64,000 nt of DNA from a virus (IMGVR_UViG_3300042197_002147:1-64000); one strand, 5' to 3'; positions 22,039 through 44,598 are shown, numbered from the stretch's first letter. Program-made: numbers and translations. Notes: generated from the sequence alone by a model not told the origin.

Positions 22039-22048
22039 GAGGTAAACT

Positions 22049-23218
22049 ATGACTTGTTCAAGTAGCAGTAATATAAGATCAACACAAACACTAGTATCCA
22101 TCACGCAAGGTGGTTCTAGACTAACAGCTGTTATTCCAGATGGATCGTACAGTTCAGGTATAACTGGGGGGGATGTAATTTATTGGAATCCTCTTGGTGG
22201 GGGTGGTGGGTTGTATGAAAAGTCAAATGCCAGCACTTCTGCTAGTGCTGAAGTTTTTGGAGTAGTAGAAAATGTAACTCAAACTGGTGTAAGTTCATAT
22301 TCCTTAAATGTTGTTTTATACGGATCAATAATATTACCTTCGTCTGCAATTTATACAATAGCAGGAGCAACAGGTGGTGCTGGTGGTGCAGATGTATATT
22401 TCTTAAGCGGTATAAGCGCAGGAAAAATACAAGTAGAAGCACCATCAACAATTGGTCATGTAATAAAACCAGTTTATCAAGTTGCTCCACACGGATCATA
22501 TACTGGAACAGTTGTAAATTACATTGGCTATAGATTAGGCGGCGAAATAGAAGCATTTACAGATCCTGCCGAAAATTTGACTGGAACTGTTTCCTTTTTG
22601 GTAAACTTAGCAGATACAGTAAATCCAGTAATACCAGCAAATTATGTTGATGCAAGAATATCACATGAATTATTAGTCTCGATTCATCCAAGTTTCTATA
22701 ACAAGTATGGAAAGCAGTTTGGTTTTGTTGAAGAAATTACATTAAAACCGGGATATTTGGCAGATGCATCTAAAATAGGAAAAGTTACTGTTACAAGAAC
22801 ATCCGATTCAACTCTTTCTTCTGGAAGTATTTTAGCAACAGCAAACGATAACAAATATTACATCAGATGGCCAGGAACGGCATCAACAACAACAAGTTCG
22901 CAAAAACTTAAAATTTCTGACACATTTTTGGAAGTTCAATCTTCTAGCGTATATTCAGTGTTTACTCCAAAAATAAATACAATAGCAAACTTTAGTATTT
23001 TTGATGTCAATGGAAATAATATAAGTGCAGATTTAGTTCCAATAATGAAATTAAATCCAGAAGAATTATCAGTAAACATACCACAAAATGTAGTCATTTC
23101 AGAAGCAACAATACAAACTATAAAATTAGGAACTGAGTCTAGTAATGACAATGTTGGTACAGTATTGACTGATTTGGAAAACAGATTATCTGCCGTAGAA
23201 GCAAGATTGTTAATGTAA
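22049..23218 (+). CDS. Short fibre protein with C-terminal coiled coil
   Basis: A 389-residue beta-rich protein. The segment DVYFLSGISAGKIQVEAPST matches the repeated module AGCFYFLSPSVTGGISVTEP of the preceding fibre, so the two genes share at least one domain type. The last 40 residues form a helical, heptad-like end (NVGTVLTDLENRLSAVEARLLM) typical of trimeric fibres. GAGG lies 7 nt before the ATG. It stands between the main fibre and the collagen-like adhesins. Probably a fibre or fibre-base component; receptor and partner are unknown. Confidence 0.7.
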   Translation: MTCSSSSNIRSTQTLVSITQGGSRLTAVIPDGSYSSGITGGDVIYWNPLGGGGGLYEKSNASTSASAEVFGVVENVTQTGVSSYSLNVVLYGSIILPSSAIYTIAGATGGAGGADVYFLSGISAGKIQVEAPSTIGHVIKPVYQVAPHGSYTGTVVNYIGYRLGGEIEAFTDPAENLTGTVSFLVNLADTVNPVIPANYVDARISHELLVSIHPSFYNKYGKQFGFVEEITLKPGYLADASKIGKVTVTRTSDSTLSSGSILATANDNKYYIRWPGTASTTTSSQKLKISDTFLEVQSSSVYSVFTPKINTIANFSIFDVNGNNISADLVPIMKLNPEELSVNIPQNVVISEATIQTIKLGTESSNDNVGTVLTDLENRLSAVEARLLM

Positions 23219-23219
23219 A

Positions 23220-26084
23220 ATGGCAAAATTTATATACGGAAGTAGCAATATACCGATAAACAATGTACCTACAACGATAGGTATAACTGGTCCTACTGGA
23301 CCTGCTGGTATAACTGGCCCAGAGGGTCCGGTTGGACCAGTCAGACCCGGTCCAACCGGAGACACTGGTCCTTCTCTCGTAAATATAGTAAAAAATTCTC
23401 AAAACTTTTTTGAACATTATTTTGATAATGGACAAATAGTAAATAGTCCTTCTAAAATAGTAGGACCCAATGGACCTTCCTATCTCAATATTCAGGGTGT
23501 AAGTTTAGATACATTCAATGTATTGACAGCAGATCTTGATAATTATTCATATAAAAAATTAACAGAAACATTTACAATTGATGCAGTCGGTTTTAGAAAC
23601 ATAACAACAAATAGTTCACCATATATCACAATAACAAGTGAAGATGATGAAACAATAGAAATTAATTATAATTTAATAGGTCTATCTTTTCTCGGAATAA
23701 GTGGTGGTTCCGATGGTCAATTGTTAAAAAATACAATAGGAAACTTTCAATCTGGTGAAACAGGAACAAATTACAACGAACAATTAAGAACTATCGACGC
23801 CAGAACTAGTAATATAGTTCAAAGATTTTTAAAGGTCAATTTCTTGCAGGCTGCATCTGGTGCTGTTCGATATTGGAATATAGACCCATCATTAGGTAAT
23901 TCTTTTTACTTAAGTCCCGTTGATTTGTCAACTGGTACAATATACTTTTTAGTCCTTAAAAAACCAGATAATGTTAATAGTTCAAAATCTATTACTGTTA
24001 TAGTTCCATCGGCCGGAATGACTCCAACAAAACAAATTCAATATGTCACTGTAAATGAACTCGGAGAAATAACAGATTGGTCTTTGAGGAATGTAAGTCC
24101 TATTTCTTGGTCATTGAATCAAGCACCATGTATTCCAAAAACTGGTTTTACTATTTTAAATTTTACTTCTATTGGTGGTGTTTGGTATGGAAATGTAATT
24201 GGTCATGCACAAACTAGTGTTTCTTCTGTTGCAACTTCTTTTGATAATTCAAATAGTACAGATAGATCAAACATATACCACTGTAATCCTACATCAATAT
24301 ATCAACAAGGTTCTTCAGATGAACCTGCACTGTTATTCGGAACAAATACAGGAATAACTGCTGGCCTTTGCTGCGATTCAACATGCACACCATCTGAAAA
24401 TTTGAATATTTTCTGTAATGGTTATTTTATACCAGGCGTTACATCTGGAGGTTCTACATTTTGTGATGCATTGGGTGCTTGTTGCTTGAAAAGTTCAAAT
24501 GGAAAAGTTTTACCTTGTCAGAAGTTAAAATACTGTGAGTGTGCTTCGATAGCAGAAAACACAAATTTAGAATTTTCTTGGAATAAATTTAAAAATGCAA
24601 AAGAATCTTGCTTAGATTTTGATTGTGCAAACGCATTTGAAGACATTGGTGCATGTTGCGATGGTTCTGGAAATTGTTCAGAAATAACATATACAGATTG
24701 TGTTGCAAGACATGGATTTTTTCAAGGATATGGTATCAAATGTGTTACTTCTAAAAATATTCAAATATGCTATGGTGGTACGGGTGGATGCTGTGATTCT
24801 GGCATAACTTGCGAAAACAATGTTTATGGACCAAATTGCATATCATCAAAGAAAACATTCTTGGGAGATGGAACAAATTGCATTGATTATGATTGTCAAA
24901 TAAAAAGCATTCCTTGTTATGATATTATACCAAACGAAATTTTAAAATTTGGTGATTTGTATAGCAATGCCATGGTTTGTGGTATATTCAATCCAAATAA
25001 AGCAGAGTGTTTTGGTAATACAATTTTTGGTTCAAATCAATCACTAACATTTGATGATTTAGTAGAATCTGAAGCAGAAGTAAACTGTATGGATTATGCT
25101 TCAGTTTATGATTATGTTGGATATGGTTTTACTGGTCAAAATGCCTGCGATAATAACTCGGATTCTTATATTATACTTCTTTCTTTACATCCAGTCACTG
25201 TGGATGAAAACAATAATATAGTTTCTTATAGTGGAAATAGCAAAAATTATACAGACTTTACATGGAGTCACGGTGGAAATTACTGGGGTCCTTTGTTGAA
25301 TCCATTTAGTGGTGTTATTTCAGAGATGTCTGATGATAAATTAGTTTATAAAGAGGGTTATATTTACGATTACACCAACGAAAATACAAAAATTAATTTA
25401 ACTATAAACTCATTTATTGATTGTGGATTTGTAAGAAAATCTGATAATCCACAAAGTTGGTTACAAAGCAATCCAAATAGTTCGTTCAATGGAAAATGGT
25501 TTAGAAATTATGGTTTAATTAACTCTATTAGAATGGTCAATGCCGAATATGCATATTACTTAGGACTCACCGGAGAGAATTTTACAACATCGACTTATAC
25601 ACCAACTCAAAGTAGTTCTCAAATGACTGCTGGGCGTGCAATTTCCCTGTTCAATAAAAATTATGAAGAAAATAATGATTTTATTTCTGATTGGTATTTA
25701 CCAAGTTATGATGAATTGGCATATTTAGCAAAAAATTGCTTAATGGATGCGGAAAATAATATTAATTCAAAACTTCTACAAAATGGCGGCACACCTTTAG
25801 ATGGATGGCATTGGTCTTCAACTGGAACATTTAATTCACAAGAAAATGAATATATTTTAAATCATCCAAGTGGTTTAACACATGGAACAATGGCATGGGC
25901 AATACAATTTGATTCGGATGGAAATTCAGAAAAATTCAAGACGAAAAAAGCAAATAGAACAGAAAATAAATATAAAGTAAGGCCAATTAAATTGATAAGA
26001 TGTGATAAAAAATATCATGCAAACAATTCATCCAATAATAAATATTGGAGATTGATAAACTTGAACGAGAACGCAATAACATGA
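23220..26084 (+). CDS. Collagen-like, Cys-rich adhesin A with lectin-like tip
   Basis: A 954-residue protein in four parts. An N-terminal anchor (MAKFIYGSSNIPINN) is followed by a short collagen-like Gly-X-Y run (about residues 22-52), a beta-rich region, and a cysteine-rich region (about 380-560) with units such as GACCDGSGNCSEITYTDC. The C-terminal domain (about 820-945) has DWYLPSYDELAYLAKNC, GWHWSST and a final VRPIKLIR, the DUF1566/Lcl pattern of a C-type-lectin-like fold. It is first of four related genes; its stop overlaps the next start (ATGA). Adhesion is inferred from architecture. Confidence 0.7.
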   Translation: MAKFIYGSSNIPINNVPTTIGITGPTGPAGITGPEGPVGPVRPGPTGDTGPSLVNIVKNSQNFFEHYFDNGQIVNSPSKIVGPNGPSYLNIQGVSLDTFNVLTADLDNYSYKKLTETFTIDAVGFRNITTNSSPYITITSEDDETIEINYNLIGLSFLGISGGSDGQLLKNTIGNFQSGETGTNYNEQLRTIDARTSNIVQRFLKVNFLQAASGAVRYWNIDPSLGNSFYLSPVDLSTGTIYFLVLKKPDNVNSSKSITVIVPSAGMTPTKQIQYVTVNELGEITDWSLRNVSPISWSLNQAPCIPKTGFTILNFTSIGGVWYGNVIGHAQTSVSSVATSFDNSNSTDRSNIYHCNPTSIYQQGSSDEPALLFGTNTGITAGLCCDSTCTPSENLNIFCNGYFIPGVTSGGSTFCDALGACCLKSSNGKVLPCQKLKYCECASIAENTNLEFSWNKFKNAKESCLDFDCANAFEDIGACCDGSGNCSEITYTDCVARHGFFQGYGIKCVTSKNIQICYGGTGGCCDSGITCENNVYGPNCISSKKTFLGDGTNCIDYDCQIKSIPCYDIIPNEILKFGDLYSNAMVCGIFNPNKAECFGNTIFGSNQSLTFDDLVESEAEVNCMDYASVYDYVGYGFTGQNACDNNSDSYIILLSLHPVTVDENNNIVSYSGNSKNYTDFTWSHGGNYWGPLLNPFSGVISEMSDDKLVYKEGYIYDYTNENTKINLTINSFIDCGFVRKSDNPQSWLQSNPNSSFNGKWFRNYGLINSIRMVNAEYAYYLGLTGENFTTSTYTPTQSSSQMTAGRAISLFNKNYEENNDFISDWYLPSYDELAYLAKNCLMDAENNINSKLLQNGGTPLDGWHWSSTGTFNSQENEYILNHPSGLTHGTMAWAIQFDSDGNSEKFKTKKANRTENKYKVRPIKLIRCDKKYHANNSSNNKYWRLINLNENAIT

Positions 26085-29000
26085 TTCAAAATTACGGTAG
26101 TTCAAATATTATTTTAGGTTACTCTGGCGTTACTGGATTTACTGGTCCAACAGGTCCTACTGGGCCCACCGGACCTACTGGTGCGACTGGAGCAACCGGA
26201 TATGGTATTACTGGATCTACCGGATTTGGCATTACTGGCGGAACATATTCCTCGCCAGGATCTGTTATTTTTTATATCGGAAATACTGGTAGCGTTACAA
26301 TAGGAATTACTGGTCCAGTTGGTTCTAATTTTAACGATACATTTGTTGTTTTGATAGGACCGACTCTTTCTTCTTCCGGTTCTACTCTGTTTTCTCCATT
26401 CTACACAACAGATCCGTTAGAAAAAATTACAAACAAAATAGAAATTGGTTATGGAGAAGATTTAAATGTAAAAAGTTTAGATTTTGTTTCTCTAAATGGT
26501 GAAATATTATCAGTAACAGAAAATACAAATCAAATAATTGTAGCTGGTAAAACATTTAGTACATTTCCAATGGGAAACACTGGTGAACTTCTTTATATCA
26601 AAAATGGAGTCGCAGTTGGTGCAAGAGAAACTAAATGGGATAATGCCACAAATCAATTAATTGTTTCCTTTGATACTTTTAGACAATCAATAGAAGGAAA
26701 CACCGGAAACATTTGGACTCCAATTTCTGGTGTTTGCTTTAATACTACTTCACTATTTACACAATTAGTGACATCTGGTGGGTTTACTTATGGTAAATCA
26801 CAGATAATAGAAAATTGGGATGATAGTAATTCTTTCAAATCAAATAATGGAATTTATAATATTACAAATTCCACATTCAATATACAGCAAAAGTATTTCT
26901 TCGGGCAAAGCGGAGGAACAGATTTACAATTATTGCCCAGAACAATTACATTTACAAAAGGATCAAACCAATTTCTTCCCCAAATTTTTACTGAAGACAA
27001 ACTAGGATCTTGTTGTTTTTGCAGAAGTGGTTCTTCGGATAAAGAATGCTTAGATTATGTTTCCAGAGATTATTGCATAAGCATCGGTGGTCAGTTTGGA
27101 GTAAAGGCATGCGTCGAGCGTCTTGGAACATCCGACTGTTTTCCAGAAGGTGCTTGTTGTGTAAACGGAAAGTGCGTAAATTCAGATGTAGATGCATGTG
27201 TAAAATATGGTGGAGTATTTTTTCCGGGAGAAATTTGTTCTACAACAATTATTGAAGGAGAACCAGCATTTGTATGTCCGAATGCTTGTTCTTTTGGAAT
27301 AGGTTCATGTTGCTATAAAGGAAACTGTTTAGATTTAAACGAATCAGAGTGCAAAGCAATACCAAATACTGTCTTTGTTCGTGGAAAAAGATGTAACGAA
27401 TTGCCAAAAGTTACGGGAGAACCACCAGATACAACAGAATATGATTATTGTTGCAGAGTTTCTAGTTTTTATGGTCCTTGCTGCACATATACTTCTGGAA
27501 ATGGTGATTCAAATTCAACATGCATTCCAAACCTGTCTCCGAAAGATTGCATAGACAGAGATGGAATTTTTATGGGTTTCGGGAAATCGTGTGATGAAAT
27601 CAATTGCTGCGGAGTTTCATATTCTCCAGAATATTATAGAGAATCTTCTACTTGCAGAAAAACATCAAACGATCCTTGCAGTCCTACCGGAACTAGAATT
27701 GGTGGTGGTTATTTAGTTGCAATAATTGGTTCTCCAAATTCATGCACAACTTTCTCACAACCACAATTTGGAAAAGGAGAACCGCTTGAGTGTCTTTGTA
27801 ATCCTAGAGGTGAGGTGTTCGGGGAAGGAAGAGAAACATGGAAGTTTAAAAATTGCCTAGATTATTCTGCAAATACTGCATATATCGACTACTATGATCG
27901 ACCTTTGTTTGTAAGAACTCACCCAAGAATTCCAACAATAAAAATGTATGCAAATAAGTGCTTACTGAAGGCAGGAGCACCATACATAACCCAACTAAAT
28001 GACGGAGCATATAGTCTTCAGGATGGAAGTCAAAAAAATACAAATGGTGGAAGTCTTCCAGAATTTACTTGGCCAGACGCAAAATTCTTTGAGGGTTCTG
28101 AAACTTATGATCAAACAATTTTTCCATCATTTGATAATCAAACTTGCAATATAATGGTAGAAGCAATTGGTTTGGGTACACCACCATCAACTCTTTACAA
28201 ATATCTTGCAGAAAAATTCTATGGCGCAAATGCAATTCATATAGTATGGGCTCTTATAATGGCGCCAAGAGATTTGACTGTAAATTATACTGGCGTTACT
28301 TATGATTATATGAAATGGTCGAACATGGTTGAATCTAGAGTTGGACCTGGTTCAGAATCAAATTCTCCTAATTTCTTCTTAGAACCAATAGCAACATCAC
28401 CAGTAGATGGATTGTTAAATACTAGACTTCACGATGCCCATTCAAAATCAAAACCAGAATTCTGGTTTAGGGATTATGACAATGATGGAATAGATTCTAG
28501 AGCATATGACAGATTTGTTACCCAAAATATAAATCAATGGGATTTGGTCGAAAACGCAGATGAACAAAAAATAAAAACAGATAAACAAGAATTTGAATAT
28601 TATTATTCCCAACTATGGGAAAAATTAAACCCAGAAAATACTGCAATAAGACAGATATCAAAGGCAAATGAAACTAATTTTTATGGATATGATGATTGGT
28701 ATATTCCAAGTGCTCTAGAGATGTATTATATTTCAAACTATGTTGATGAATTAAACACATCTATTTTGACAAATGGTGATGATGATCATCAGATTTTACA
28801 ATATACAACTTATCCAAACACTTCAGGACCAACCCCAGGCGCGCCCGGACAAACTCGTAGCGTATACTGGACATCAACTAGTGTTTGTAGAATAAATGCA
28901 TGGAATAAAAATAACCACACAATAAAAGATTTTTATCAAATAGAATCAACAAATACATCTTTAAATGTTAAATCTAGATATAAATCTGGTGAATTTGGTC

Positions 29001-29308
29001 TAAGCGATTCTGATGCTTTTGATTTGTCACACCAGATATGCAATGGTCAAAAAATGTTAGGTGTAGATTTATCTAGAACTGGAATGGGAAGATGGGGGTT
29101 CACCCGCGCCTACGACAGACAAACACAATGTAGAGTAAGACCTGTTAGAAGAATACCAATTGTAGTAGGTTGCTCTAATTTGGAAATAATAAATGCCTAT
29201 GAAGATTATGATTTTAAGGAATGTCCTTCTTGTTTTGATTATGATAATTGTAATTCCGATATAAATAACAACGGTAACAACGGACCAACTCCGGGTACTA
29301 TGAGTTAA
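26081..29308 (+). CDS. Collagen-like, Cys-rich adhesin B with lectin-like tip
   Basis: A 1075-residue paralogue of the previous gene. The open frame extends to a TTG at 26045, but the ATG at 26081 gives MIQNYGSSNIILGYSG, matching the anchor YGSSNI of adhesin A, and overlaps the previous stop, so it is chosen. A collagen-like run (about residues 17-55) has many GPTG and GATG units. The double-Cys region (about 308-517) includes GACCVNGKCVNSDVDAC and SCCYKGNCLDLNESEC. The C-terminal lectin-like domain (about 865-1027) contains YDDWYIPSALEMYYISN, VYWTSTS and CRVRPVRR. Three tips of this type occur in the locus with little sequence identity, suggesting changing receptor specificity. Confidence 0.7.
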   Translation: MIQNYGSSNIILGYSGVTGFTGPTGPTGPTGPTGATGATGYGITGSTGFGITGGTYSSPGSVIFYIGNTGSVTIGITGPVGSNFNDTFVVLIGPTLSSSGSTLFSPFYTTDPLEKITNKIEIGYGEDLNVKSLDFVSLNGEILSVTENTNQIIVAGKTFSTFPMGNTGELLYIKNGVAVGARETKWDNATNQLIVSFDTFRQSIEGNTGNIWTPISGVCFNTTSLFTQLVTSGGFTYGKSQIIENWDDSNSFKSNNGIYNITNSTFNIQQKYFFGQSGGTDLQLLPRTITFTKGSNQFLPQIFTEDKLGSCCFCRSGSSDKECLDYVSRDYCISIGGQFGVKACVERLGTSDCFPEGACCVNGKCVNSDVDACVKYGGVFFPGEICSTTIIEGEPAFVCPNACSFGIGSCCYKGNCLDLNESECKAIPNTVFVRGKRCNELPKVTGEPPDTTEYDYCCRVSSFYGPCCTYTSGNGDSNSTCIPNLSPKDCIDRDGIFMGFGKSCDEINCCGVSYSPEYYRESSTCRKTSNDPCSPTGTRIGGGYLVAIIGSPNSCTTFSQPQFGKGEPLECLCNPRGEVFGEGRETWKFKNCLDYSANTAYIDYYDRPLFVRTHPRIPTIKMYANKCLLKAGAPYITQLNDGAYSLQDGSQKNTNGGSLPEFTWPDAKFFEGSETYDQTIFPSFDNQTCNIMVEAIGLGTPPSTLYKYLAEKFYGANAIHIVWALIMAPRDLTVNYTGVTYDYMKWSNMVESRVGPGSESNSPNFFLEPIATSPVDGLLNTRLHDAHSKSKPEFWFRDYDNDGIDSRAYDRFVTQNINQWDLVENADEQKIKTDKQEFEYYYSQLWEKLNPENTAIRQISKANETNFYGYDDWYIPSALEMYYISNYVDELNTSILTNGDDDHQILQYTTYPNTSGPTPGAPGQTRSVYWTSTSVCRINAWNKNNHTIKDFYQIESTNTSLNVKSRYKSGEFGLSDSDAFDLSHQICNGQKMLGVDLSRTGMGRWGFTRAYDRQTQCRVRPVRRIPIVVGCSNLEIINAYEDYDFKECPSCFDYDNCNSDINNNGNNGPTPGTMS

Positions 29309-29309
29309 A

Positions 29310-30865
29310 ATGTATAATAGTGTAATTAATAATAAAATTATATCTGGACCTATTGGACCAACTGGCGCTACAGGAGCAACTGGTTCTACAGGTCCAACAG
29401 GTCCAACAGGTTCTACTGGTGCAACTGGATCCGTTGGTCCTTACATCATTTCCGTAGATGCAACAACAAGTAGAGCAATATTTACACTCTCAAATGGTTT
29501 AACATTTGGTATTACTGGTTCTTTTTCGGGTAATACTGGATATGCATCTACTGAGCAAGCAACTAGCATTGGTTCCGGGACATCTATATTAGGAACAGCA
29601 ACGCCAGGTCAACTTAATATAAAAGGTATAAGTGCAATTGGATCTTTAGTTGTTACAACTACTACTAATAATCTGTCAATTGATACAATCTATAAAAGCA
29701 CTGTCGGAAATTTAGATGCTCTTGGTTTGTCTGCCGATACTTTAATGTATTTAAAAAGTCCAGAACTGGCATCTAGCACAAGAATAAAATTAGATGGAAC
29801 TGGTGATTTAGATTTTCAAAATCAATTTTACTTAAATGATTCGGCATATATTCGTGAAGTTGGTCCTGTTAAAAAAAATCAATATGTCGGCATAACAGGT
29901 GCAATTGAAAATATAACAAACGGAACAACTGGTGGAATTTATGTCGATCTTGAAAATGGTGGATTTTATTTACTAAGAACACCAATTGGAATTGCTGGTT
30001 TTACTGGAACTTTCCGAAGAAACGAAATCGTATCATCCACTTTAGTTTTTGAGTCCGATGACATCTGGAAATTCCCAGAAAATGTCTACTTCGAATCTGG
30101 TGAAAATTATTTTACATGTGGTAAAAGTATAGTAAACATTTCTACTTTCGACGGTGGAGAAAATTGGTATGCTGTTGTTTCACAACGCGGTCTAGATATC
30201 GAAAAAATAACTGCTTGTAAACCGTCAATAGGTAAAGGTTCCTGTTGCTATACAAAATATCCAGAAAATACAAAGCGTTGTTTGGAATATGTTTCCAAGG
30301 AACAATGTGACAGACTTTCCGGTGAGTTTAACTCACTGTTGTCTTGCTCACAGACATGTAATACCGGAATAGGAATATGTTGTTCCAACGGAAATTGCAT
30401 AGAGAATGTCTCCGTAGAAGAATGTGCTTTTTTTGGTGGAAATTATTATAGTGGCATAGACTGTAATACATATCCAAATAATCCAAACGGTAAAAATTAC
30501 GATGAACCCATACAAAATGGTAGACTGTGTTTTGATCCATGTCAGACAGAACAAATTGCATGTTGCAAAGACGGAGTGTGCTTAGGTAGTAATTACTCAA
30601 GAATACAATGTGAAAGTATTTTAGGAGGAAAAGCATACACTGGAGGAAATTGCTCTACAATAAATTGTTGCGAAAATAATGTAGGAGTTGGTGCTTGCTG
30701 TATATGTGCTCCTGCATATATTGACCCAAAGACATTACAATGCTTTGATGGTTTGACTAAAAAACAATGTGAACAAAAAGCAAAATCAATAAGTTCAGTC
30801 TATACTGGCGTTTTTATGGGAGAGGGAGAACAATGTGGTGATGTAAATTGCGGATGTGCTTGTGT
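29310..30865 (+). repeat. Long paralogous repeat shared with 32632-34150
   Basis: This 5' portion of adhesin C and 32632-34150 of the next gene encode the same domains in the same order (collagen-like run, VDATTSRAIF domain, double-Cys units). Stretches of DNA are near identical; for example the region encoding VDATTSRAIFTLSNGLTFGI (from 29455 and 32778) is the same for about 60 bases. This looks like a recent gene duplication, or ongoing conversion, with different middles downstream. Confidence 0.85.
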
Positions 30866-32618: not shown

Positions 32619-32631
32619 ATAATTTTATAAC

Positions 32632-35600
32632 ATGTATAGTAGTAGCATCAATACTTTAAAAATGATGGGTCCTGATGGCCCCACTGGTTCGGTGGGTCCA
32701 ACCGGATCTACCGGACCAACAGGACCCACTGGCGCAACTGGATCCACAGGAGCAGTTGGTCCTTACATCGTTTCCGTAGATGCAACAACAAGTAGAGCAA
32801 TATTTACACTCTCAAATGGTTTAACATTTGGTATTACAGGTTCTTTCTCCGGTAATACTGCATATTCTTCAACCGAACAAGCGACTAGCATTGGTTCTGG
32901 AACATCTATACTTGGAACAGCAACTCCAGGCCAACTTAATATAAAAGGTATAAGTGCAATTGGATCTTTGGTCGTAAGTACCACAAGTAATAATCTGTCA
33001 ATTGATACAATTTATAAAAGTGTTGTTGGAAATTTAGATGCTCTTGGTTTGTCTGCTGACACTTTAATGTATTTAAAAAGTCCAGAACTTGCAAGCAGCA
33101 CACGAATAAAATTAGACGGAACTGGTGATTTAGATTTTCAAAATCAATTTTACTTAAATGATGCCGCTTTTATAAAATATGTTGGCCCCATAAAAAAGAA
33201 TCAATATGTTGGCATAACAGGTGCAATTGAAAATATAACAAACGGAACAACTGGTGGAATTTATATTGATTTAGAAAATGGTGGGTTTTATCAATTAAAT
33301 ACACCAATCGGAATTGCTGGTTTTACTGGAACCTTTAACAAAAACGAAATTATTAGTGCAACACTAGTGTTTACTTCAGATGATATCTGGAAATTCCCAG
33401 AAAATGTCTATTTTGAATCTGGTGAAAATTATTTTACATGCGGTAAAAGTATAGTAAACATTTCTACTTTCGACGGTGGAGAAAATTGGTATGCTGTTGT
33501 TTCGCAGCGTGGTTTAGATATAGAATCATTTGCTTCTTGTAAACCATCAATAGGTAAAGGTTCCTGTTGTTATGTAAAATACCCGCAAAACACAGTAAAT
33601 TGCATAGATTATGTTTCTCGTGACGAATGTGATTTACTGGGTGGTTCTTTTAATCCACTTTTGTCTTGTTCACAGTCCTGTGGTTTGACTTTTGGTTTGT
33701 GTTGTTCCAATGGAAATTGCATAGAAAATGTTTCACCAGACGAATGTGCTTTTTTTGGTGGTGTTTTTTATTCTGCTTTAAGTTGTAATACTTATACAAA
33801 TAATCCAAATGGTAAAAATTATGATGAACCTATAGAAAATGGTAGACTTTGCTACAATCCATGCGAAACTGAAAAATTAGTTTGTTGCAAAAACGGAACA
33901 TGTTTGGGTAGTAATTACTCAAGAATACAATGTGAACTTATTCTTGGTGGAAAATCTGTAACTGGCGGAGATTGCTCTACTGTAAATTGCTGTGAAAACA
34001 ACATTGGTGTTGGTGCTTGTTGTGCTTGCAAGGCAAAAGGATTGTTGTGCTATGATAATCTAACACCACAAGAATGTTTAAGTGCAGAGTATGATGGTGT
34101 TTTCATGGGACAAAATGAATTGTGTGATAATGTAAATTGCACATGCGTTGGTGGTTCAAATGAACAGGTTGGTGAAACTTTTCCGACATTTGATTTGATT
34201 GTTGTACAAAATCCTGTAGCACCAAATCAAAGAGGTCATGTACGAATAGTTAATGTGGAAGATGCAGAAGGCGGACCATTTCAATATAAAGTAACTTTAA
34301 ATAGAATAATTGATCTTTTACCGGAAACAATTTATACTACTGAATATTTTGATATAACAAATCCTATAAACACAGATTATTTTACCGAACCATTGGAACA
34401 TCTCACTGACGAAGGAATTCCAACAATTTATGAAGTTGTTATATCGGTAAGAGATACTGATAATAATATATCAACAAAATCCAAATTTATTTCAGTAAAT
34501 GATGTAATTCCAGAAATTGTTTCAATATCTGTAGTACCAAGTTCTCCAATAATTTATGAAGAACCAGAAACATATCCAATAAATGTTGGATCCACAGTTT
34601 TAGTAACTGCAAGAGATCCTGATGGTGGATCAGTTTTCTATGAATTTAGCATAGAACCTTCAGAAAATGAAGTTTCTTTTATTGAAATGCAATCCAACAT
34701 GATTGCAGTTACTCTTGTGGTAAAGGAAACTACCAATAACAATACAACAGTAACCGTTAAATGTGTCGTAACAGACGAAGAATCTCAAAGCGTAACTGTT
34801 ATGGTTCCTATAGTTTTTCAAAAAGATGTAGCACCAGAATATGATATTGTTATAGATCCTCCCGGAGAGGGAACCGATTTACCAGATTGGGTATACAATG
34901 GTTGCTTAAATGCTTCAACTTATCCTGCTGCTGGAAGAATAGGAACAACATTAAGACCTCGTATTAAAATTCCAGCAAATCAAGGAAATATTAAATTATA
35001 TTATGGAATGGCTATGTACAGAGAAGAAGGACCTGGTCAGTACTATTGCTGCATGAATTGTCAGCAAATTGTAATGCCAAACGGGGAACAAGATATTATC
35101 TCTGGAATAAATGATATAACTATAGATTTACCTGAAGTAGCAGGAAATACAGCAGGACTTTATATTCTTAGCACCATACTACGGCAACAACCATACAATG
35201 AGTTCAATACAATATCTAGAGCAAAAGCAGTTAGAATAACAAATGAAGGTCCTCAAATAATTGAAATAACTCCTGATATTGTAATCAATATGGATCCTTC
35301 TGAACCGCAATTACAAGTTCCAACTGCTTTTATTCCAAATGGTATTTTCAAGGAAGTTCAATTTGGTGTAACTGCCGCCGATATAAACAATAATCTAGTT
35401 GGTGCATTGTTTTTTCCAAGGTTAATAGCCAATGGAAATGTATTAAGTTACAATTATACTTACACATCTGGATATGTTCGACCTGTCTCAAATGTAACAA
35501 AAATTGGCAATTATTTTACCCAAAGATGGAGATTTTTTTACGAGTCAAATTATCAAATAGATCATCAAGTTAACGATGAAGTTTTATATACTGATATTGA

Positions 35601-38600
35601 TTCTAGTAATTTGTCAATTATAAGAGTCAGTAACACTTCCCCTTCTATTTTTTCTATAACATCAAATATAGTAATACCACCAGAAACCGCATTTTCTGTA
35701 ACAGGAAGTGGTATAACAGATCCAGATCCTGCTGATGTATTACAATTTAAATGGGTTTTATCTAAATCGGATTCTTCTATTATAGAGGATACTGGTTGGC
35801 AAACACTATCTGGTTCTAGTGTGACATATACAAAATCTACTGGATTACCCGGAGCACAGACGAATCAAGTTTATTTTGTAGATCTTTTTGTAAAAGATCC
35901 AAACGAAAATGTAGCAACAAAAAGATGTACTGTAACCGTACAGAATAGTTTACCTATAATTGGTGTAACTTATGATACAGACATAAGTTCTCCTTTTGTT
36001 AAATTTATAAATGGAACTGATGCCAATCTTGGTCTTTTAGAAAAATTAATTTTAGACACCACAATTACTGCTTCTGATCCAGATGGTGGTTCTTTGACAT
36101 ACAATACAACAGTTTCTGGTGGTCCATTTTCGATAAATGGTCAAACTACTTCAAAACCAAAAATAGAACTATTGCAAAAGGGAAATTATTTAATATTCCA
36201 CACAGTAACTGATAATGAAGGTGGAACCGACTTCATTCAAAGTAATGTAGAAATTTTAGAAAATGAAAGACCTTCTATAAATTTTGATTCAACACAATCT
36301 TCTATTTTGTTTCCTTGCTCTGGTCAAAATTTAGTTGATGTAATTGCAACAGTTTCTGATACAGAAACGCCATTTTCTAATCTCACAAATGCTACAATTG
36401 TTCCGATTAGTTATCCATCAACACCACCAGAATTGATAGGTACTGTTCTAACAGACAATGGTTCAAGTGGTGACATAACAACTAGATTTAAAGTATTCAA
36501 CACAGGAACATATACATTTAAAGCATCTATAACCGAACCGGGAATAGATGACACTATTTCTCAAACAGTAGAAGCATCAACTACTATAACAGTATCTGCT
36601 GATCCTAACTTCAATCCTTCAATTCCACCCATATCCCCGATTACTGTTTCGAATCCAATTTCAAATTTCTTATTTACAATCAACGCTTTCGATGTCAACG
36701 GAATAAATCCATTATTATCCAATGTCAGACTTGAAACTGGTGCTGATCCGTATTTTAGAATTAATTCAACCACCACAACACAGCAGGGCGACAATACTAG
36801 TATACAATTTGTATTAGATATATCTGTTCTTTCCACCACTGTACCTAATGGTTTATATTCTCTTATTATAAAAATTATAGACAATTGTGGAAGATCTTTC
36901 GAACAAACATCTGGATTTGTTAATGTGCAAAATACAGCACCATCCGTAACCATAACAAACCCAACTCAGACCGTTGTTTCTTCAACACTTCCAGTAACAT
37001 TAAATTTGAGTGCAAGTGGTTATGATCCAGATGGTTCAACACTAATTTATAATTGGACATTGACTGGCCCAAGTACAACATACAATTTTTCAGCAAATAA
37101 TTCATCATCATCAAATAACACAATTTTAACTGGATTGAATAAAGGTGGCCAGCATCAAGTTTCTGTTACGGTAACAGATAGTTCTGGTTCTACATCTGTT
37201 CCGGCAGCAGTTACATTGAATGTGACGGATCCAAATCCTACAGCAAATGCAGGAAACGATTTATCAATAACATATCCAGATTTAACAACATTTCCTAAAA
37301 CTTTTTCATTAGATGGAACAGGAAGCACGGATCAATCTGGCGGTTCTATAAGTTTATATCAGTGGAGTATTATTTCCCAAAGCGGTTCTACAATTGAATT
37401 TGTTGGGTCAAATCAAATTTCTACACCAACGGTTAAGGTTAATGGTTTTGGAACATATACTTTATCTTTAGTAGTTACTGATAATAATTCAAATGTTTCC
37501 AGTCCAGATACTGTTACTTTAACTTTGTTAAGAGACATTGCACCAACAGTAAATTTGACCGCATCATCAACAAACATTACACTTCCAACAAATTCTATTA
37601 ATTTACAAATTAATACATCAACAGATGTAACTTCGGCAACAATAACAGAGGTGACTTCTTTTGGTGCTACAATAGTTTCACCCGTAAAACTAAATTCAAC
37701 AACTTGGCAAGCAACTATTAATAATTTGACAACAAATAGTAATGGTTCTTCTAGAAACTATACATTCAAGGCAACTGTAGATGATGGTGTAAATCCACCA
37801 GTTGATTCAAATCCACAAACAATAACAATAAACAATCAAATACCAACTGCCGAAATATTTATTCCATCTAGTACTTCTGGTGTTAATATGACAAGTAACT
37901 ACACATTTGGTATTACGGCATTTGCCGTTGACCCAGATGGTGGTTCTCTGGTAAATCCTGAATTTCTTATAACTACGGTTCCTCCAACATATACTGGAAG
38001 TGTTTTATTTGGTGCAATTTCCCAAAATGTAAGTACAAGCGGAACAACATATTCGGCACAATGCACGATAGCTGCACCAATAAAAATTGGAAATTATGGT
38101 TTTGCATTCATGATAACTGACAATGAAGGACAAACAGTTCAGTCTAATCCAAAAGAATTAATATTCACAAATCAAAGTCCTACAATAACAGCATCAAAAC
38201 TGGCACACATTATACCATTTCCAACAGTTACACAGTTCAATACATCTGTATATGGAATTTCGGTCACGGATCAAGATAATAATATAACATCAAGTAGATG
38301 GAGAATGAAAAGTGTTCCTTCTGGTGCAAATTCTGGATACTCCAATCCCTTATCATCGACTTCTTCATATTCTGATATTTTAATTCCATTTATTGATTCG
38401 CCGGCTCCGGTGGGTGGTACATATACTCTTGAATTACAAATTCAAGATTTGGGAGGAAGTGTAGTTAGTCAAGATTTTACTGTTAAAAGAAATCAAGCCC
38501 CAAATGTTAGTATTACAAATCCAGATCCAAACAATTCTGTAAATATAACATTACCTTCTACTCTTAATTTAACCGCAGTTGCAAATGATCCTGATGGATT

Positions 38601-41600
38601 TATTTCTAGTTATATCTGGACCGCATCTGATCCAAGCAGAGTAACTTTTAGTAATGCCTCTTCTTTAAACACAACAGCAACATTTACTCCAATTGGTTCT
38701 ACATATTCGATTTCAATTGGATTTTCAGCAACAGACAATAATGGAAGACCTACATCAGCAAGTCCAAGTTTAACAGTAAATGTTTCCCCAAATCCAGCAC
38801 CAGTAATAACATCATTTTCTGCTTCTCCAACTAATCCACTTATTTCCGGTGCTAATCAAAGTGCATCCACCACACTTACAGTAAATGCAACAGATAACGA
38901 AGGAATTACATACTTCTTTAAACAAGTACCAGAAGCAGGAACACCAACAGTAAGTATAACACAAAATCCATTACAAAATCAAGCAGTTGTTTCTGGTATG
39001 ACACTTCCATTTTCGAATAGCACAATAGCTTCTTCTAAAGTTTATAAATTTCAAGCAGAAGTCACTGACGCCTCTGGAAACAAAATAACTAGTAACACAT
39101 TAAATGTTACAGCAGAAAGCAGTCAACCAACAATATCTAATGTAAATAGTAATTTGGGTTCGATTACATTTACAGGGTCATCACAATCAATAAACATAAA
39201 TCCTACACCTGGCGCAACAGCAATAGATCCAGATGGTGGAATTTTAAATTATTTATGGACAAACCCAACTAAACCCGCCGGAGCAGGAATCGTCACAATA
39301 AATAATAGCAATACATTCACACCAACTGCAACAAACTTTACTCAGCCAGGATCTTATGGTTTTAATTTACTTGTAACAGATAACGAGGGAACACAAAATA
39401 ATCAAACAGTATCCTTAACTTTAACTAATGCAGCGGCTCCAACATTTGGTACTCTTCCTGTGAGCGGCGTAGTACAAAACCCTGTTTTAAGTGTTTCAAG
39501 AACTTGCACAATTTCAAATGCAAGTGCAACTCCATCTTCAACAAATGCCGGACCCGTTAATGTAACAGCAGGGGTTACGCAAATTTCAGGTCAAACTGCA
39601 CCAACAGTATCAGTAAGTAATGGAACGAATATACAGTCTAGTGCTACTGTCTCTATAAACATTAATACAGCAACGATGACTCCCGGTATTGATTTTACTA
39701 TTTCAGTAACGGCAACTTCTACAACAAATGCATCGCTTTCAGCAACAACAGCATTTACTATAAGAAAAAATGCATTACCTATTTTACCACCACTCTCTGG
39801 AAGCGGTGGTAATGTAAATACTAAATTAAATTTTACAATATCTGGTGTTGGATTTGCATCTGATCCCGATGTAGGTGGATCAATTACAAGATATGATTGG
39901 ACAACAAATCCTCCGACCAGTTCAATTTTTCCAAATAATAATGCTGGTGCGACATTTGTTGGTATAACATTTAATGCAACAGGAACATATACCGTTTCTT
40001 GCCGAGCTGTTGACATTTTGAGTGAAGGTACTACTGCTAATTTAACTGGTATTGCTATAGCTGCACCACCAGCAGATCCTTGTACATTAAAGAATTATGC
40101 ACGAAGTAGTGGATATTTGTATAATATTATCGTGCCAAATGAAGCAATACGAGGCGCATCAAAAGGACCAGGAGCTCCTCCAGCTCCACCCAATACATGT
40201 CCGCCGCCCCCTTCTAGTCCTATTCAAAGTTTGTTTAATTCGGGAAGTGCATTTGCTTCGAACTGGGATTATTTGGGCGCTTTTAGTGCTGGTGAGTTAG
40301 GATGGAAAATAAATCCAGCAAAACCAACGGGCGATGATAATACAGGAACAAAATATCCTTATTCTAATTTTATTTTAAGAAATGGAAATTATTTTGATCA
40401 TTCTGCTACTGCTTTTAGTTTGGATTATTTTGACAGTTGGAAATCAGCATCAACTGCACTGATTCCAGTTGCTGCCATTAGAAGAGTTACTAGACCATTT
40501 GATTTGTCTTTTGCATATTTAAGCGGTATTTATCCAAATTTACAAAATAGAACTCAATATGAAAATAGATTTATACAATTTATAAATTCAAATGAATTCG
40601 ATTTCACATCAAATGCAGAACAAGACAAAACTGTAAGACTTGGTGATGGAATTCCATTTATTTTCAAATGCTCCTGTTGGGACGCAAATGAGGAATTGTC
40701 CTATACAAATTGGTATGATTATACTTCACAAACTGGTTCACAAGAATTTAATTTAACATGTCCATCAGGAACTACAAGAAAACCAAGATCTTTGATTGTT
40801 GTTAGATTTAAACAAGCAACAGCGATGTCAGCAGTAACAAATGGTCCTTCAGGAAATGCAACAAAATGTCATAATTTTACTAATGTTGGTGGCGGCGAAG
40901 GCGCACAAGTAGTCACAACTGATATAACTGCATATTATGTTTCAAGAAATGAAGCACAATCGGCTACAACGGACACATGTAAAATAGGTGTAGGTAAATA
41001 TGCACTTATAAGATATGAAATAAATTACCCAAAAGACTCAACAGGTGATGGTTCGTTAACAAAAACAATTTGTAGCGATTCATCGACAAATGTGGGTACA
41101 TGCTCTGGTGCTAGTAATTTGTTTATTCCGGTTAGCACTCTTTCTTTCACAACTTATCAAAGTGATCCAGATATTGCAAATCAGCTTGGAAATTTTCCAA
41201 AAGTAGTTAATATTCCAGAAATTTGCACTCCGTGTACGACATCAGGTCCAGCGCAAACAGATGCGAATAGAACAGCTAAAAGAAAATACTCAGATATAAC
41301 TTGGACAACTTCTAGCATGGCATGGGCAACAACTTCAGCTCCTTTAAGTGTAACATCAAATCGTGCGTTTGTTCCACCCGAATTTATATGTGTTGCGGAT
41401 TGTGAAAATTCATCGTATTTATCTGGAGGAACATGTATAACTACCATGACCGGTCCTTGTGCAGCAGCTGCATTTACTGGAGAAGAAACACCAATAAATG
41501 ATTCAAATGGTAATGAAAATCTCATTTGGATTAAAATATATAGTAGTGAGGATCCAACACTATATGAATGTGTTCCTGTTCTATATGATTTAGAAATTTT

Positions 41601-41628
41601 AAAACAATACGAACTTTGCGAGGAATAA
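32632..41628 (+). CDS. Giant adhesin D with Ig/PKD-like array
   Basis: A 2998-residue protein from one 9-kb frame. Residues 1-505 copy adhesin C: anchor, collagen-like run (about 14-45), VDATTSRAIF domain and double-Cys units (about 308-503). Residues about 507-2480 form a long series of Ig-like/PKD/cadherin-like repeats, marked by recurring DPDGG, VTDNEG and SxPxxxxNLTASxxDPDG segments (e.g. LNLSASGYDPDGSTLIYNW). Residues 2482-2980 are a separate Cys-containing region starting PCTLKNYARSS. The final ~38 residues (WIKIYSSEDPTLYECVPV, KQYELCEE) match the end of adhesin C. No protease, lyase or lectin motif is seen. It is likely an extended rod holding a distal binding part far from the particle. 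Confidence 0.75.
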   Translation: MYSSSINTLKMMGPDGPTGSVGPTGSTGPTGPTGATGSTGAVGPYIVSVDATTSRAIFTLSNGLTFGITGSFSGNTAYSSTEQATSIGSGTSILGTATPGQLNIKGISAIGSLVVSTTSNNLSIDTIYKSVVGNLDALGLSADTLMYLKSPELASSTRIKLDGTGDLDFQNQFYLNDAAFIKYVGPIKKNQYVGITGAIENITNGTTGGIYIDLENGGFYQLNTPIGIAGFTGTFNKNEIISATLVFTSDDIWKFPENVYFESGENYFTCGKSIVNISTFDGGENWYAVVSQRGLDIESFASCKPSIGKGSCCYVKYPQNTVNCIDYVSRDECDLLGGSFNPLLSCSQSCGLTFGLCCSNGNCIENVSPDECAFFGGVFYSALSCNTYTNNPNGKNYDEPIENGRLCYNPCETEKLVCCKNGTCLGSNYSRIQCELILGGKSVTGGDCSTVNCCENNIGVGACCACKAKGLLCYDNLTPQECLSAEYDGVFMGQNELCDNVNCTCVGGSNEQVGETFPTFDLIVVQNPVAPNQRGHVRIVNVEDAEGGPFQYKVTLNRIIDLLPETIYTTEYFDITNPINTDYFTEPLEHLTDEGIPTIYEVVISVRDTDNNISTKSKFISVNDVIPEIVSISVVPSSPIIYEEPETYPINVGSTVLVTARDPDGGSVFYEFSIEPSENEVSFIEMQSNMIAVTLVVKETTNNNTTVTVKCVVTDEESQSVTVMVPIVFQKDVAPEYDIVIDPPGEGTDLPDWVYNGCLNASTYPAAGRIGTTLRPRIKIPANQGNIKLYYGMAMYREEGPGQYYCCMNCQQIVMPNGEQDIISGINDITIDLPEVAGNTAGLYILSTILRQQPYNEFNTISRAKAVRITNEGPQIIEITPDIVINMDPSEPQLQVPTAFIPNGIFKEVQFGVTAADINNNLVGALFFPRLIANGNVLSYNYTYTSGYVRPVSNVTKIGNYFTQRWRFFYESNYQIDHQVNDEVLYTDIDSSNLSIIRVSNTSPSIFSITSNIVIPPETAFSVTGSGITDPDPADVLQFKWVLSKSDSSIIEDTGWQTLSGSSVTYTKSTGLPGAQTNQVYFVDLFVKDPNENVATKRCTVTVQNSLPIIGVTYDTDISSPFVKFINGTDANLGLLEKLILDTTITASDPDGGSLTYNTTVSGGPFSINGQTTSKPKIELLQKGNYLIFHTVTDNEGGTDFIQSNVEILENERPSINFDSTQSSILFPCSGQNLVDVIATVSDTETPFSNLTNATIVPISYPSTPPELIGTVLTDNGSSGDITTRFKVFNTGTYTFKASITEPGIDDTISQTVEASTTITVSADPNFNPSIPPISPITVSNPISNFLFTINAFDVNGINPLLSNVRLETGADPYFRINSTTTTQQGDNTSIQFVLDISVLSTTVPNGLYSLIIKIIDNCGRSFEQTSGFVNVQNTAPSVTITNPTQTVVSSTLPVTLNLSASGYDPDGSTLIYNWTLTGPSTTYNFSANNSSSSNNTILTGLNKGGQHQVSVTVTDSSGSTSVPAAVTLNVTDPNPTANAGNDLSITYPDLTTFPKTFSLDGTGSTDQSGGSISLYQWSIISQSGSTIEFVGSNQISTPTVKVNGFGTYTLSLVVTDNNSNVSSPDTVTLTLLRDIAPTVNLTASSTNITLPTNSINLQINTSTDVTSATITEVTSFGATIVSPVKLNSTTWQATINNLTTNSNGSSRNYTFKATVDDGVNPPVDSNPQTITINNQIPTAEIFIPSSTSGVNMTSNYTFGITAFAVDPDGGSLVNPEFLITTVPPTYTGSVLFGAISQNVSTSGTTYSAQCTIAAPIKIGNYGFAFMITDNEGQTVQSNPKELIFTNQSPTITASKLAHIIPFPTVTQFNTSVYGISVTDQDNNITSSRWRMKSVPSGANSGYSNPLSSTSSYSDILIPFIDSPAPVGGTYTLELQIQDLGGSVVSQDFTVKRNQAPNVSITNPDPNNSVNITLPSTLNLTAVANDPDGFISSYIWTASDPSRVTFSNASSLNTTATFTPIGSTYSISIGFSATDNNGRPTSASPSLTVNVSPNPAPVITSFSASPTNPLISGANQSASTTLTVNATDNEGITYFFKQVPEAGTPTVSITQNPLQNQAVVSGMTLPFSNSTIASSKVYKFQAEVTDASGNKITSNTLNVTAESSQPTISNVNSNLGSITFTGSSQSININPTPGATAIDPDGGILNYLWTNPTKPAGAGIVTINNSNTFTPTATNFTQPGSYGFNLLVTDNEGTQNNQTVSLTLTNAAAPTFGTLPVSGVVQNPVLSVSRTCTISNASATPSSTNAGPVNVTAGVTQISGQTAPTVSVSNGTNIQSSATVSININTATMTPGIDFTISVTATSTTNASLSATTAFTIRKNALPILPPLSGSGGNVNTKLNFTISGVGFASDPDVGGSITRYDWTTNPPTSSIFPNNNAGATFVGITFNATGTYTVSCRAVDILSEGTTANLTGIAIAAPPADPCTLKNYARSSGYLYNIIVPNEAIRGASKGPGAPPAPPNTCPPPPSSPIQSLFNSGSAFASNWDYLGAFSAGELGWKINPAKPTGDDNTGTKYPYSNFILRNGNYFDHSATAFSLDYFDSWKSASTALIPVAAIRRVTRPFDLSFAYLSGIYPNLQNRTQYENRFIQFINSNEFDFTSNAEQDKTVRLGDGIPFIFKCSCWDANEELSYTNWYDYTSQTGSQEFNLTCPSGTTRKPRSLIVVRFKQATAMSAVTNGPSGNATKCHNFTNVGGGEGAQVVTTDITAYYVSRNEAQSATTDTCKIGVGKYALIRYEINYPKDSTGDGSLTKTICSDSSTNVGTCSGASNLFIPVSTLSFTTYQSDPDIANQLGNFPKVVNIPEICTPCTTSGPAQTDANRTAKRKYSDITWTTSSMAWATTSAPLSVTSNRAFVPPEFICVADCENSSYLSGGTCITTMTGPCAAAAFTGEETPINDSNGNENLIWIKIYSSEDPTLYECVPVLYDLEILKQYELCEE

Positions 41629-43206
41629 ATGGCAATACAGTTTAGAACAAGAACAAAAAGTGCAATAAACTATTCCACGGAACTGAAATCTATTGGAGTG
41701 TGTTGTGGTATAGATGGATCAAAAACATCTAAAACATTTTTAGAATGTTTTCAGTCTGGTGGAAACTTTCAATACGGAAACATAAATGAAGTTGATTGTA
41801 TAAGTCCGGGTGCAACTGGTTGTTGTTGCTCATGTTCAAATGAAACATTAGAAGGTAGTTTATTTAATGGTGTTATTTATCCAGATTTATTAACGCAATG
41901 TGGAGGAATAATAAACAATAATAGATTAGGTTTAGTGAATGGAACTTCAAAGTGTGAATGTGAAAGATTGGGTGGCGTTTGGAATCAGGGACCCTGTCCA
42001 ACAAATGGTCAAAGTGCGACATTAGATCCAGCCTACGACCCAAATAGTATTTTAATTGGTAATTCAACAGCAGACAAATATTGTGGAAAATTATTTCCAG
42101 TTGGTGATTTATTATCAAATGAAGCATGTCTATTTGATGTAAGAGTTCCAAGATCTTGTTGCTATATGGATAGAGATGATAACAATGTTCCCACTAAAGT
42201 TATTTGTGAAAATGTTTGCAAGAGTTCAGATTGCATGGGTTATACTGCATCAAATCAACCAGCAATATTTTCCAAGAAAAAATTATGCAATGCTGATTTA
42301 TTAGGTAATGGCACGGCAGATTGCACATCTTCTAGTTTTTTGAGTTATTATTCTACTGGAACTGCTTTATTTGATGATTTTTCACATGGACCTTGTTTCA
42401 GATTAAAGAAAACAAATAACACATATTCATATGATTGTGAATTGACATCAAAAGAATTATGTGAAGAGTACTGGACTGAATTATTAGATGATTCGAAGGT
42501 ATGCAACCACAATTATGCACCACAAGTTCCAACTAAAACTGGAAGTAGAATTATAGAACCAGAAACAATGTCAGAATATTCTTTTAATTTGCTTGGTCTT
42601 AATATTGGTGCAACTTATAAAGGTGGAATTTATATGGGAATCTATGAACCGGGTTCTCCGATTACACCAACTGCTTCTGATATTTTTGGTGCAGAACAAT
42701 TAACACAAAAAACAGGAACACTGTTAAAATCAAATGCTTCCGGACCTGGAGAAAAGAAAAATAAAAAATGGGCAATAATAGTAGAACCCTCAATTTATTT
42801 TACAACATTTTTAGATGTGGGGGAACAACTACAAACAAGTCAAAGAAATTTATCAAAATATGATGGATTTTATAATTTTTATGGGGACAATAGAACATTT
42901 AACGGAATAAAAACAAAATTAACAAATACAATATGCGGTAAAAATAGAAAAGGATTTGCAGATTTTTATGTTCCCTCTTTGAAAGAGTTGCAATTTTTTG
43001 CAAAACAATATCAGGTTTATGTTTCTGGTGTCACTAATTATATAATACCAAGAGGCGCATTTATGACATCATCAATGTATAACGAAAAATTATTATATAG
43101 TCAGTATTTGACTCTATCTGATTCGTATAACTATGGTAGAGTAATTTTGTCTGCTCCGACTACAAATCTTTCTATATTGTTTTTTAGAAGAATTTTATTG
43201 ACATAA
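41629..43206 (+). CDS. Cys-rich adhesin E with lectin-like C-terminus
   Basis: A 525-residue protein without the collagen-like run. Residues 20-120 carry a cysteine-rich region related to the other adhesins (IGVCCGIDGSKTSKTFLEC, TGCCCSCSN, CECERLGGVWNQGPC), and a second cluster lies at about 180-260. The end (about 440-524) has FADFYVPSLKELQFFAKQY and AFMTSSMY, a weaker form of the lectin-like domain of adhesins A and B; the usual final VRPxR is replaced by LFFRRI. It follows adhesin D by one base. Lacking the N-terminal run, it may attach differently or be a secreted or accessory tip protein. Confidence 0.65.
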   Translation: MAIQFRTRTKSAINYSTELKSIGVCCGIDGSKTSKTFLECFQSGGNFQYGNINEVDCISPGATGCCCSCSNETLEGSLFNGVIYPDLLTQCGGIINNNRLGLVNGTSKCECERLGGVWNQGPCPTNGQSATLDPAYDPNSILIGNSTADKYCGKLFPVGDLLSNEACLFDVRVPRSCCYMDRDDNNVPTKVICENVCKSSDCMGYTASNQPAIFSKKKLCNADLLGNGTADCTSSSFLSYYSTGTALFDDFSHGPCFRLKKTNNTYSYDCELTSKELCEEYWTELLDDSKVCNHNYAPQVPTKTGSRIIEPETMSEYSFNLLGLNIGATYKGGIYMGIYEPGSPITPTASDIFGAEQLTQKTGTLLKSNASGPGEKKNKKWAIIVEPSIYFTTFLDVGEQLQTSQRNLSKYDGFYNFYGDNRTFNGIKTKLTNTICGKNRKGFADFYVPSLKELQFFAKQYQVYVSGVTNYIIPRGAFMTSSMYNEKLLYSQYLTLSDSYNYGRVILSAPTTNLSILFFRRILLT

Positions 43207-44595: not shown

Positions 44596-44598
44596 TAA

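Follow-up and report, generated by a model that had tools for sequence, protein, structure and literature searches.

In an uncultured T4-like myovirus related to cyanophages and pelagiphages, the locus described here forms the host-recognition cluster. It encodes a family of paralogous adhesins, and we think it probable that the tips of one slot in this family (genes C and D) are replaced by recombination at the end of a common N-terminal anchor, and that the anchors themselves are kept homogeneous.

The source is an IMG/VR record of 156.7 kb (G000, possibly incomplete); the window, that is, the whole stretch of 64,000 nucleotides analyzed, comprises its bases 1–64000. Genes A to E are five successive plus-strand genes, located where a first-pass annotation of the window had placed them (Table 1). 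The most likely start of B is the ATG at 26081, which overlaps the stop codon of A, rather than the TTG at 26045. Structural genes follow a T4-like order: a gp6-type gene (13748), the adhesin locus, genes of the gp13, gp14 and gp15 types (43795–46298) and, downstream, terminase (TerL, 46763), sheath and portal. The terminase is 55–57% identical, and the portal 49% identical, to those of marine cyanophages. Neither psbA nor CsgG was matched in the record, and the possibilities of a photosynthetic cyanophage and of a curli-bearing pelagiphage were rejected on these grounds. Both left-flank genes are kept in one relative, L004 (80% and 76%), and E follows the C/D gene in relatives too. Promoter and terminator scans of the locus gave nothing clearly above shuffled sequence.

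Table 1. Features of the adhesin locus and its flanks (coordinates are those of the window).
Feature	Position	Strand	Description
Left flank	19780..23218	+	tail-fibre protein 19780–22038 (phrog_4492) and gene 22049–23218
Gene A	23220..26084	+	954 aa; GSSNI N-terminus, collagen-like stretch
Gene A, parts			anchor residues 1–330; Cys units 24369–24896; Lcl_C-like tip ∼25623–25916
Gene B	26081..29308	+	1075 aa from ATG 26081; GSSNI N-terminus, collagen-like stretch
Gene B, parts			anchor residues 1–300; Cys units 27011–27610; Lcl_C-like tip ∼28637–28918
Gene C	29310..32618	+	1102 aa; anchor 29310–30209, ∼90% amino acid identity with D anchor
Gene C, parts			Cys units 30243–30863; Pro-rich spacer 30893–31207; Cys/Gly-rich tip; tail 32502–32615
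Gene D	32632..41628	+	2998 aa; anchor 32632–33531; Cys units 33565–34155
Gene D, parts			PKD/Ig array ∼34264–40300, then C-terminal domain; tail 41512–41625
Gene E	41629..43206	+	525 aa; conserved IQFRTR N-terminus, variant double-Cys region, predicted Lcl-CTD-like fold
Gene F	43226..43753	+	175 aa; small CxC protein in E–gp13 interval, conserved within group
gp13-type neck protein	43795..44595	+	head-tail adaptor Ad2; right flank; phrog_211 E 1e-35

Genes A to D are related through their N-termini. When collagen repeats were cut out, profile comparison matched the B anchor to the C/D anchors with a probability of 99.9% over 221 columns and the A anchor to the same set with 97.5% over 137 columns; A and B compared directly reached 84% only. 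Because the match persists without the repeats, it reflects more than low complexity, and the anchor that the first-pass annotation had described as common to four genes holds for A to D as a family, the direct A–B comparison being the one part that falls short. C and D are ∼80% identical across the anchor and Cys region. A short motif, [GSN]S[SP]x[IVFLY], lies within the first 16 residues of 25 of 28 relatives of A, 32 of 38 of B and 29 of 45 of C/D, compared with 45 of 691 other frames. The monomer model of the anchor is poor (pLDDT 64) and found no fold match, gp34 appearing only at a Foldseek E of 0.47; sequence matches of the anchor in the PDB are nearly all to collagen.

The anchor is followed by a neck of double-Cys units: three each in A, B and C and four in D, where shuffled sequences average 0.00–0.23 (maximum 3, for C). 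Such units had been proposed for five regions, and four bear this out; E has four CC pairs, but in a shorter variant that yields no unit under the strict pattern. The last ∼38 residues of C and D also proved to be shared, as had been suggested. A profile trained on distant relatives only, which replaced a regular expression that was too strict, places the tail motif at the very C-terminal end of the C and D homologues that belong to the window's clade (E 1e-5 to 1e-3, with D of the window itself at 0.016); elsewhere it gives only a few matches at E ∼1 or worse. The tail is thus a genuine family trait, a C-terminal motif conserved across distant relatives.

The distal parts are unlike one another. 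The tips of A and B match Pfam Lcl_C at E 2e-4 and 5e-5, under the curated cut-off, and 15 of 24 relatives of A and B match the same family at E ≤ 0.001 (best 1.5e-7). E has no Pfam match; its AlphaFold model (pLDDT 81) resembles the C-terminal domain of Legionella Lcl (8q4e, the second-best PDB match: Foldseek probability 0.99, E 0.008, TMt 0.55). The description of A, B and E as lectin-like is retained in a qualified form: A and B resemble the Lcl C-terminal domain weakly, through Pfam, and E does so through its predicted fold. C carries Pro-rich repeats and then a Cys/Gly-rich stretch, in agreement with the earlier description; the latter stretch has no Pfam match. The possibility that the Pro-rich spacer is an inversion of a Gly-rich spacer in L004 was rejected, the reverse-complement match being of low complexity only and not diagnostic. 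The Ig-like array ascribed to D is a PKD/Ig array (K319L-like_PKD, Pfam, E 1.5e-30).

Many relatives of the locus are present in IMG/VR, and the order A–B–C/D–E is preserved in ∼17 records. Searches for the D anchor, B, E and F by tblastn gave no match among 50,697 named phage records, and the anchor profile gave no confirmed relative among bacterial genome contigs. The C/D anchor is present in 38 of 39 records tested, mostly as a single copy. Adjacent pairs of copies were seen at three positions that lie apart in the anchor tree: the window's clade, L126/L128/L132 and L159 (G031). As read from these positions, the C/D gene has been duplicated in tandem at least three times, giving copies with closely similar anchors and unlike tips.

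How variable the tips are depends on the gene and on the distance at which relatives are compared. In the closest relatives (L002, L003 and L004), whose C/D anchors are 64–72% identical to the window's, gene order and tip types are the same as in the window as far as their contigs extend. Between the window and L003 the tip of A is 71% identical and its anchor 56%, and the tip of B 67% and its anchor 66%, whereas the tips of C and D evolve faster (41% and 33–48%, against 68% for the anchor). In the wider set of relatives, 47 C/D tips fall into 23 unrelated clusters, and what varies is the C/D tips, the presence of one or two C/D copies, and large insertions in E. A fixed arrangement with fixed middles, which the first-pass annotation had named as its refutation should it hold in all relatives, is hence a feature of the closest relatives and not of the wider set; these comparisons show that variation resides in the C/D slot.

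The clearest case of tip replacement comes from two phages, L112 and L122, that are mostly 97–100% identical at the DNA level across the flanking genes, A, gp13 and beyond. In gene B the anchor is 96–100% identical and the distal part ∼70%. The C/D anchor that follows is again mostly 96–100% identical (∼97% overall), with third positions 90–100% identical in nine of ten blocks. Past the anchor the Cys neck falls to ∼70% and the tips are unrelated (3055 versus 1798 bp); E and F are ∼70% identical, and identity is back at ∼99% from the first base of gp13. The result is a pattern that is new: an island of C/D anchor retained between two replaced blocks. The kinship of the tips crosses anchor lineages, the L112 tip belonging with that of L144 and the L122 tip with that of L114. 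An independent metagenome contig backs the L112 haplotype from tip through E and F to gp13 (99.9% over 7.3 kb); the L112 anchor–tip junction is seen in a single contig only. A second pair, L111/L121, mostly 93–100% identical elsewhere, also has an abrupt difference at the C/D tip; comparison of L103/L104 revealed none.

The same pair bears on two further points. The first-pass annotation had taken the conserved tail of C and D to be the end of a cassette, but in L112/L122 the tail differs along with the tip, and its role as a recombination border or fixed crossover end was rejected. In addition, residues 421–800 of A show 54.7 non-synonymous and 13.3 synonymous differences (dN/dS 1.2, compared with 0.19 in the N-terminal part), which hints, from this one pair only, that the middle of A may be under selection for change.

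Exchange also extends into the Ig array of D. Here L003 and L019 share patches of 91–100% DNA identity on a background of ∼60%, and L003 and its sister L002 are ∼70% identical in the same region; the array has recombined recently between phages. The suggestion that the locus is a cassette system for changing host binding thus survives in part. It agrees with the retention of the C/D anchor beneath many unrelated tips, with the replacement in L112/L122 and with recombination in the D array. It does not agree with the fixed order and tip types of the closest relatives, with A and B, where conservation of the tip equals or exceeds that of the anchor, or with the failure to find dedicated switching machinery.

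The C and D anchors of one genome are more alike than those of different genomes. In the anchor tree the two anchors of the window form one group (95/100) and the C and D anchors of L002/L003 another (97/97), and an orthologous arrangement is rejected by the AU test (p 9e-41 for C and 9e-6 for D). The C and D tips are orthologous between genomes, and the distal Cys part points, with weak support, in the same direction. Third positions of the C/D anchors are 71% identical inside the window versus 40–45% to the L003 orthologues. Most simply, gene conversion would account for the likeness of C and D anchors inside one genome. For the second tandem clade (L126/L128/L132) the test goes the other way: grouping of anchors by genome is rejected, and conversion after the split of these phages was therefore discarded; the process is thus not universal.

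These observations can be assembled into a mechanism. A to D have one common N-terminal docking module – a GSSxI peptide, collagen-like triplets and a β-rich anchor – and a common disulphide-rich neck bearing unlike distal parts. Judged from the genes alone, A to E are probably fibre components of the virion, in which A to D may dock as trimers at equivalent sites near the baseplate; the tips would bind host surface glycans or proteins, with E a putative lectin-fold companion. Comparison shows that tips have been replaced between strains by recombination with borders at the anchor end, and that the anchors of C and D have stayed alike within a genome, for which gene conversion is the simplest cause. 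A more tentative proposal goes further: gene conversion may lock the docking module into uniformity among neighboring paralogues, such that any tip could be displayed from the same sites, and the distal parts of B and C/D may be swapped between strains together with E and F, as whole co-adapted haplotypes whose borders lie at the anchor ends.

The main rival to gene conversion holds that the distal parts travel around resident anchors. The tips of C and D would have moved between lineages together with E and F as a co-adapted set, each lineage having its own duplicated anchor, and the likeness of anchors would reflect local duplication. In L112/L122 the distal parts of B and C/D differ jointly with E and F, and the C/D anchor between them is retained, which is what such movement should leave behind. 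However, the window and L002/L003 must then have duplicated their anchors independently and yet have gained the same C and D tips, identically ordered, and conversion takes fewer events; we regard this account as rather unlikely.

Ordinary divergence of tail-fibre paralogues, with anchors held alike by docking constraint and tips evolving fast in the absence of real exchange or conversion, appears improbable. Collinear, orthologous tips throughout the closest relatives are in keeping with it, as is the rejection of within-genome grouping in the L126/L128/L132 pairs. Yet constraint on protein cannot yield the third-position identities – far higher between the C/D anchors of the window than between orthologues, and 90–100% over most of the L112/L122 anchor beside non-homologous tips – nor the near-identical patches in the L003/L019 Ig array, and this account is therefore disfavored.

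A dedicated diversification system acting on the tips (a diversity-generating retroelement (DGR), an invertase or another programmed switch) is highly improbable: C-type-lectin-like and Lcl_C-like tips are known DGR targets, but no match to reverse transcriptase (PF00078; controls positive) or to the serine (PF00239) and tyrosine (PF00589) recombinases of the resolvase and integrase families was found in the 156.7 kb record, the inverted repeats of the locus are weak, with no strong long ones, and both DGR and invertase were rejected. Generic homologous recombination therefore suffices for the favored reading, in which tips are replaced and anchors homogenized; the phage encodes a UvsX/RecA homologue, and exchange is probably of this ordinary type, with no dedicated switch.

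The family is widespread among metagenomic T4-like phages yet, for the D anchor, B, E and F, has no match in named ones, and may serve an abundant uncultured group as its host-recognition apparatus. Near-identical backbones with exchanged tips amount to natural host-range experiments, in which linkage to hosts would show what the tips decide, and the anchors provide a case, open to testing, of concerted evolution that maintains one docking interface across several adhesins. A literature search at the level of titles and abstracts found no direct precedent in phage tail fibres for either concerted evolution or gene conversion.

On the T4 map gp9–gp12–wac sit upstream of gp13, and the adhesin genes occupy this same place. 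No significant homology to T4 gp34–gp37 was detected by PHROG or fold comparison, and PHROG matches of the adhesin genes are to generic collagen and tail-fibre stretches only. Legionella Lcl is a trimeric glycosaminoglycan-binding adhesin with a C-terminal domain preceded by a collagen stalk (PMC11162425). A and B have a collagen-like region and then a putative Lcl_C (DUF1566) domain, matched below the Pfam cut-off in the window, and E has a similar predicted fold; the phage genes differ in having a long double-Cys neck between collagen and tip, and in being arranged as a cluster.

The closest parallel in genome position is the host recognition cluster of pelagimyophages and cyanomyophages, from which collagen repeats and carbohydrate-binding domains have been reported (PMC7029224). 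Our locus is alike in its T4-like position between baseplate and neck genes, in its variable gene content, in its Lcl_C-like, PKD and collagen domains, and in having phrog_4492 upstream. It differs in consisting of one paralogous family with a common anchor and Cys neck, in giving no CsgG or psbA match, and in that the D anchor, B, E and F are unmatched in the named phage records.

In the branched tailspike complexes of Ackermannviridae each virion bears several receptor-binding proteins, whose N-terminal modules are conserved and whose C-termini vary; the conserved 5′ ends have been proposed as recombination sites, and recombination between tsp genes has been observed by experiment (PMC11414711). 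Conserved N-terminal modules with variable distal parts are common to both systems, whereas the stalks here are collagen-like and Cys-rich and anchor conversion is deduced by comparison only; gp10-like XD/TD domains were not matched at the N-termini of A, B, C and E in PHROGs and Pfam, or of D in Pfam. The principle of a constant N-terminal module bearing variable tips, with recombination at conserved 5′ ends, is thus already known (PMC11414711); what is new is the gene family and its evolution, the Cys neck and the conserved tail.

The Ig repeat arrays of gene D in two related phages (contigs L003 and L019) share two patches of 91-100% DNA identity and are ~60% identical outside both; the patches stem from recent recombination between phages. 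In gene A of the strain pair L112 and L122, amino-acid-changing substitutions prevail across residues 421-800 (dN/dS 1.2) within a backbone that is ~99% identical, as if this segment were under diversifying selection.

The spacer of gene C is Pro-rich in the window and Gly-rich in its closest relatives (L002, L003 and L004). The L004 spacer matches that of the window as the reverse complement only (67.6% over 219 nt); the two are possibly related by inversion, but the match is of low complexity and not diagnostic.

In L072 and L077 the counterpart of C and D is carried by two slightly overlapping frames, one with the N-terminal anchor and a separate one bearing the C-terminal tail; the break falls within or directly after a Gly-rich stretch. 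A frameshift, an assembly error and a true split are all candidates. Gene E is present as a 2628-aa protein in L030 and as a 1305-aa fragment in L032, and a long Cys-rich insertion parts its N- from its C-terminal portion.

Positions of the genes and segments compared
Feature	Sequence	Positions
Segment in Ig array of D	L003	15029-16229
Segment in Ig array of D	L019	3542-4724
Gene A	L112	4281-6995
Gene A	L122	4324-7038
C spacer	window	30893-31207
C spacer	L004	11555-11960
Two-frame C/D gene	L072	1-3242
Two-frame C/D gene	L077	4525-7814
Gene E	L030	1468-9354
Gene E	L032	2-3919
Gene F (encodes a small CxC protein; lies between E and gp13)	window	43226-43753

Gene F is kept across the whole group of related phages and is without a match among named phages or in PHROGs. 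Tandem pairs of anchor genes also occur in the distant phages L126, L128, L132 and L159; N-termini are closely similar within pairs, and in the first three the distal tips are unlike.
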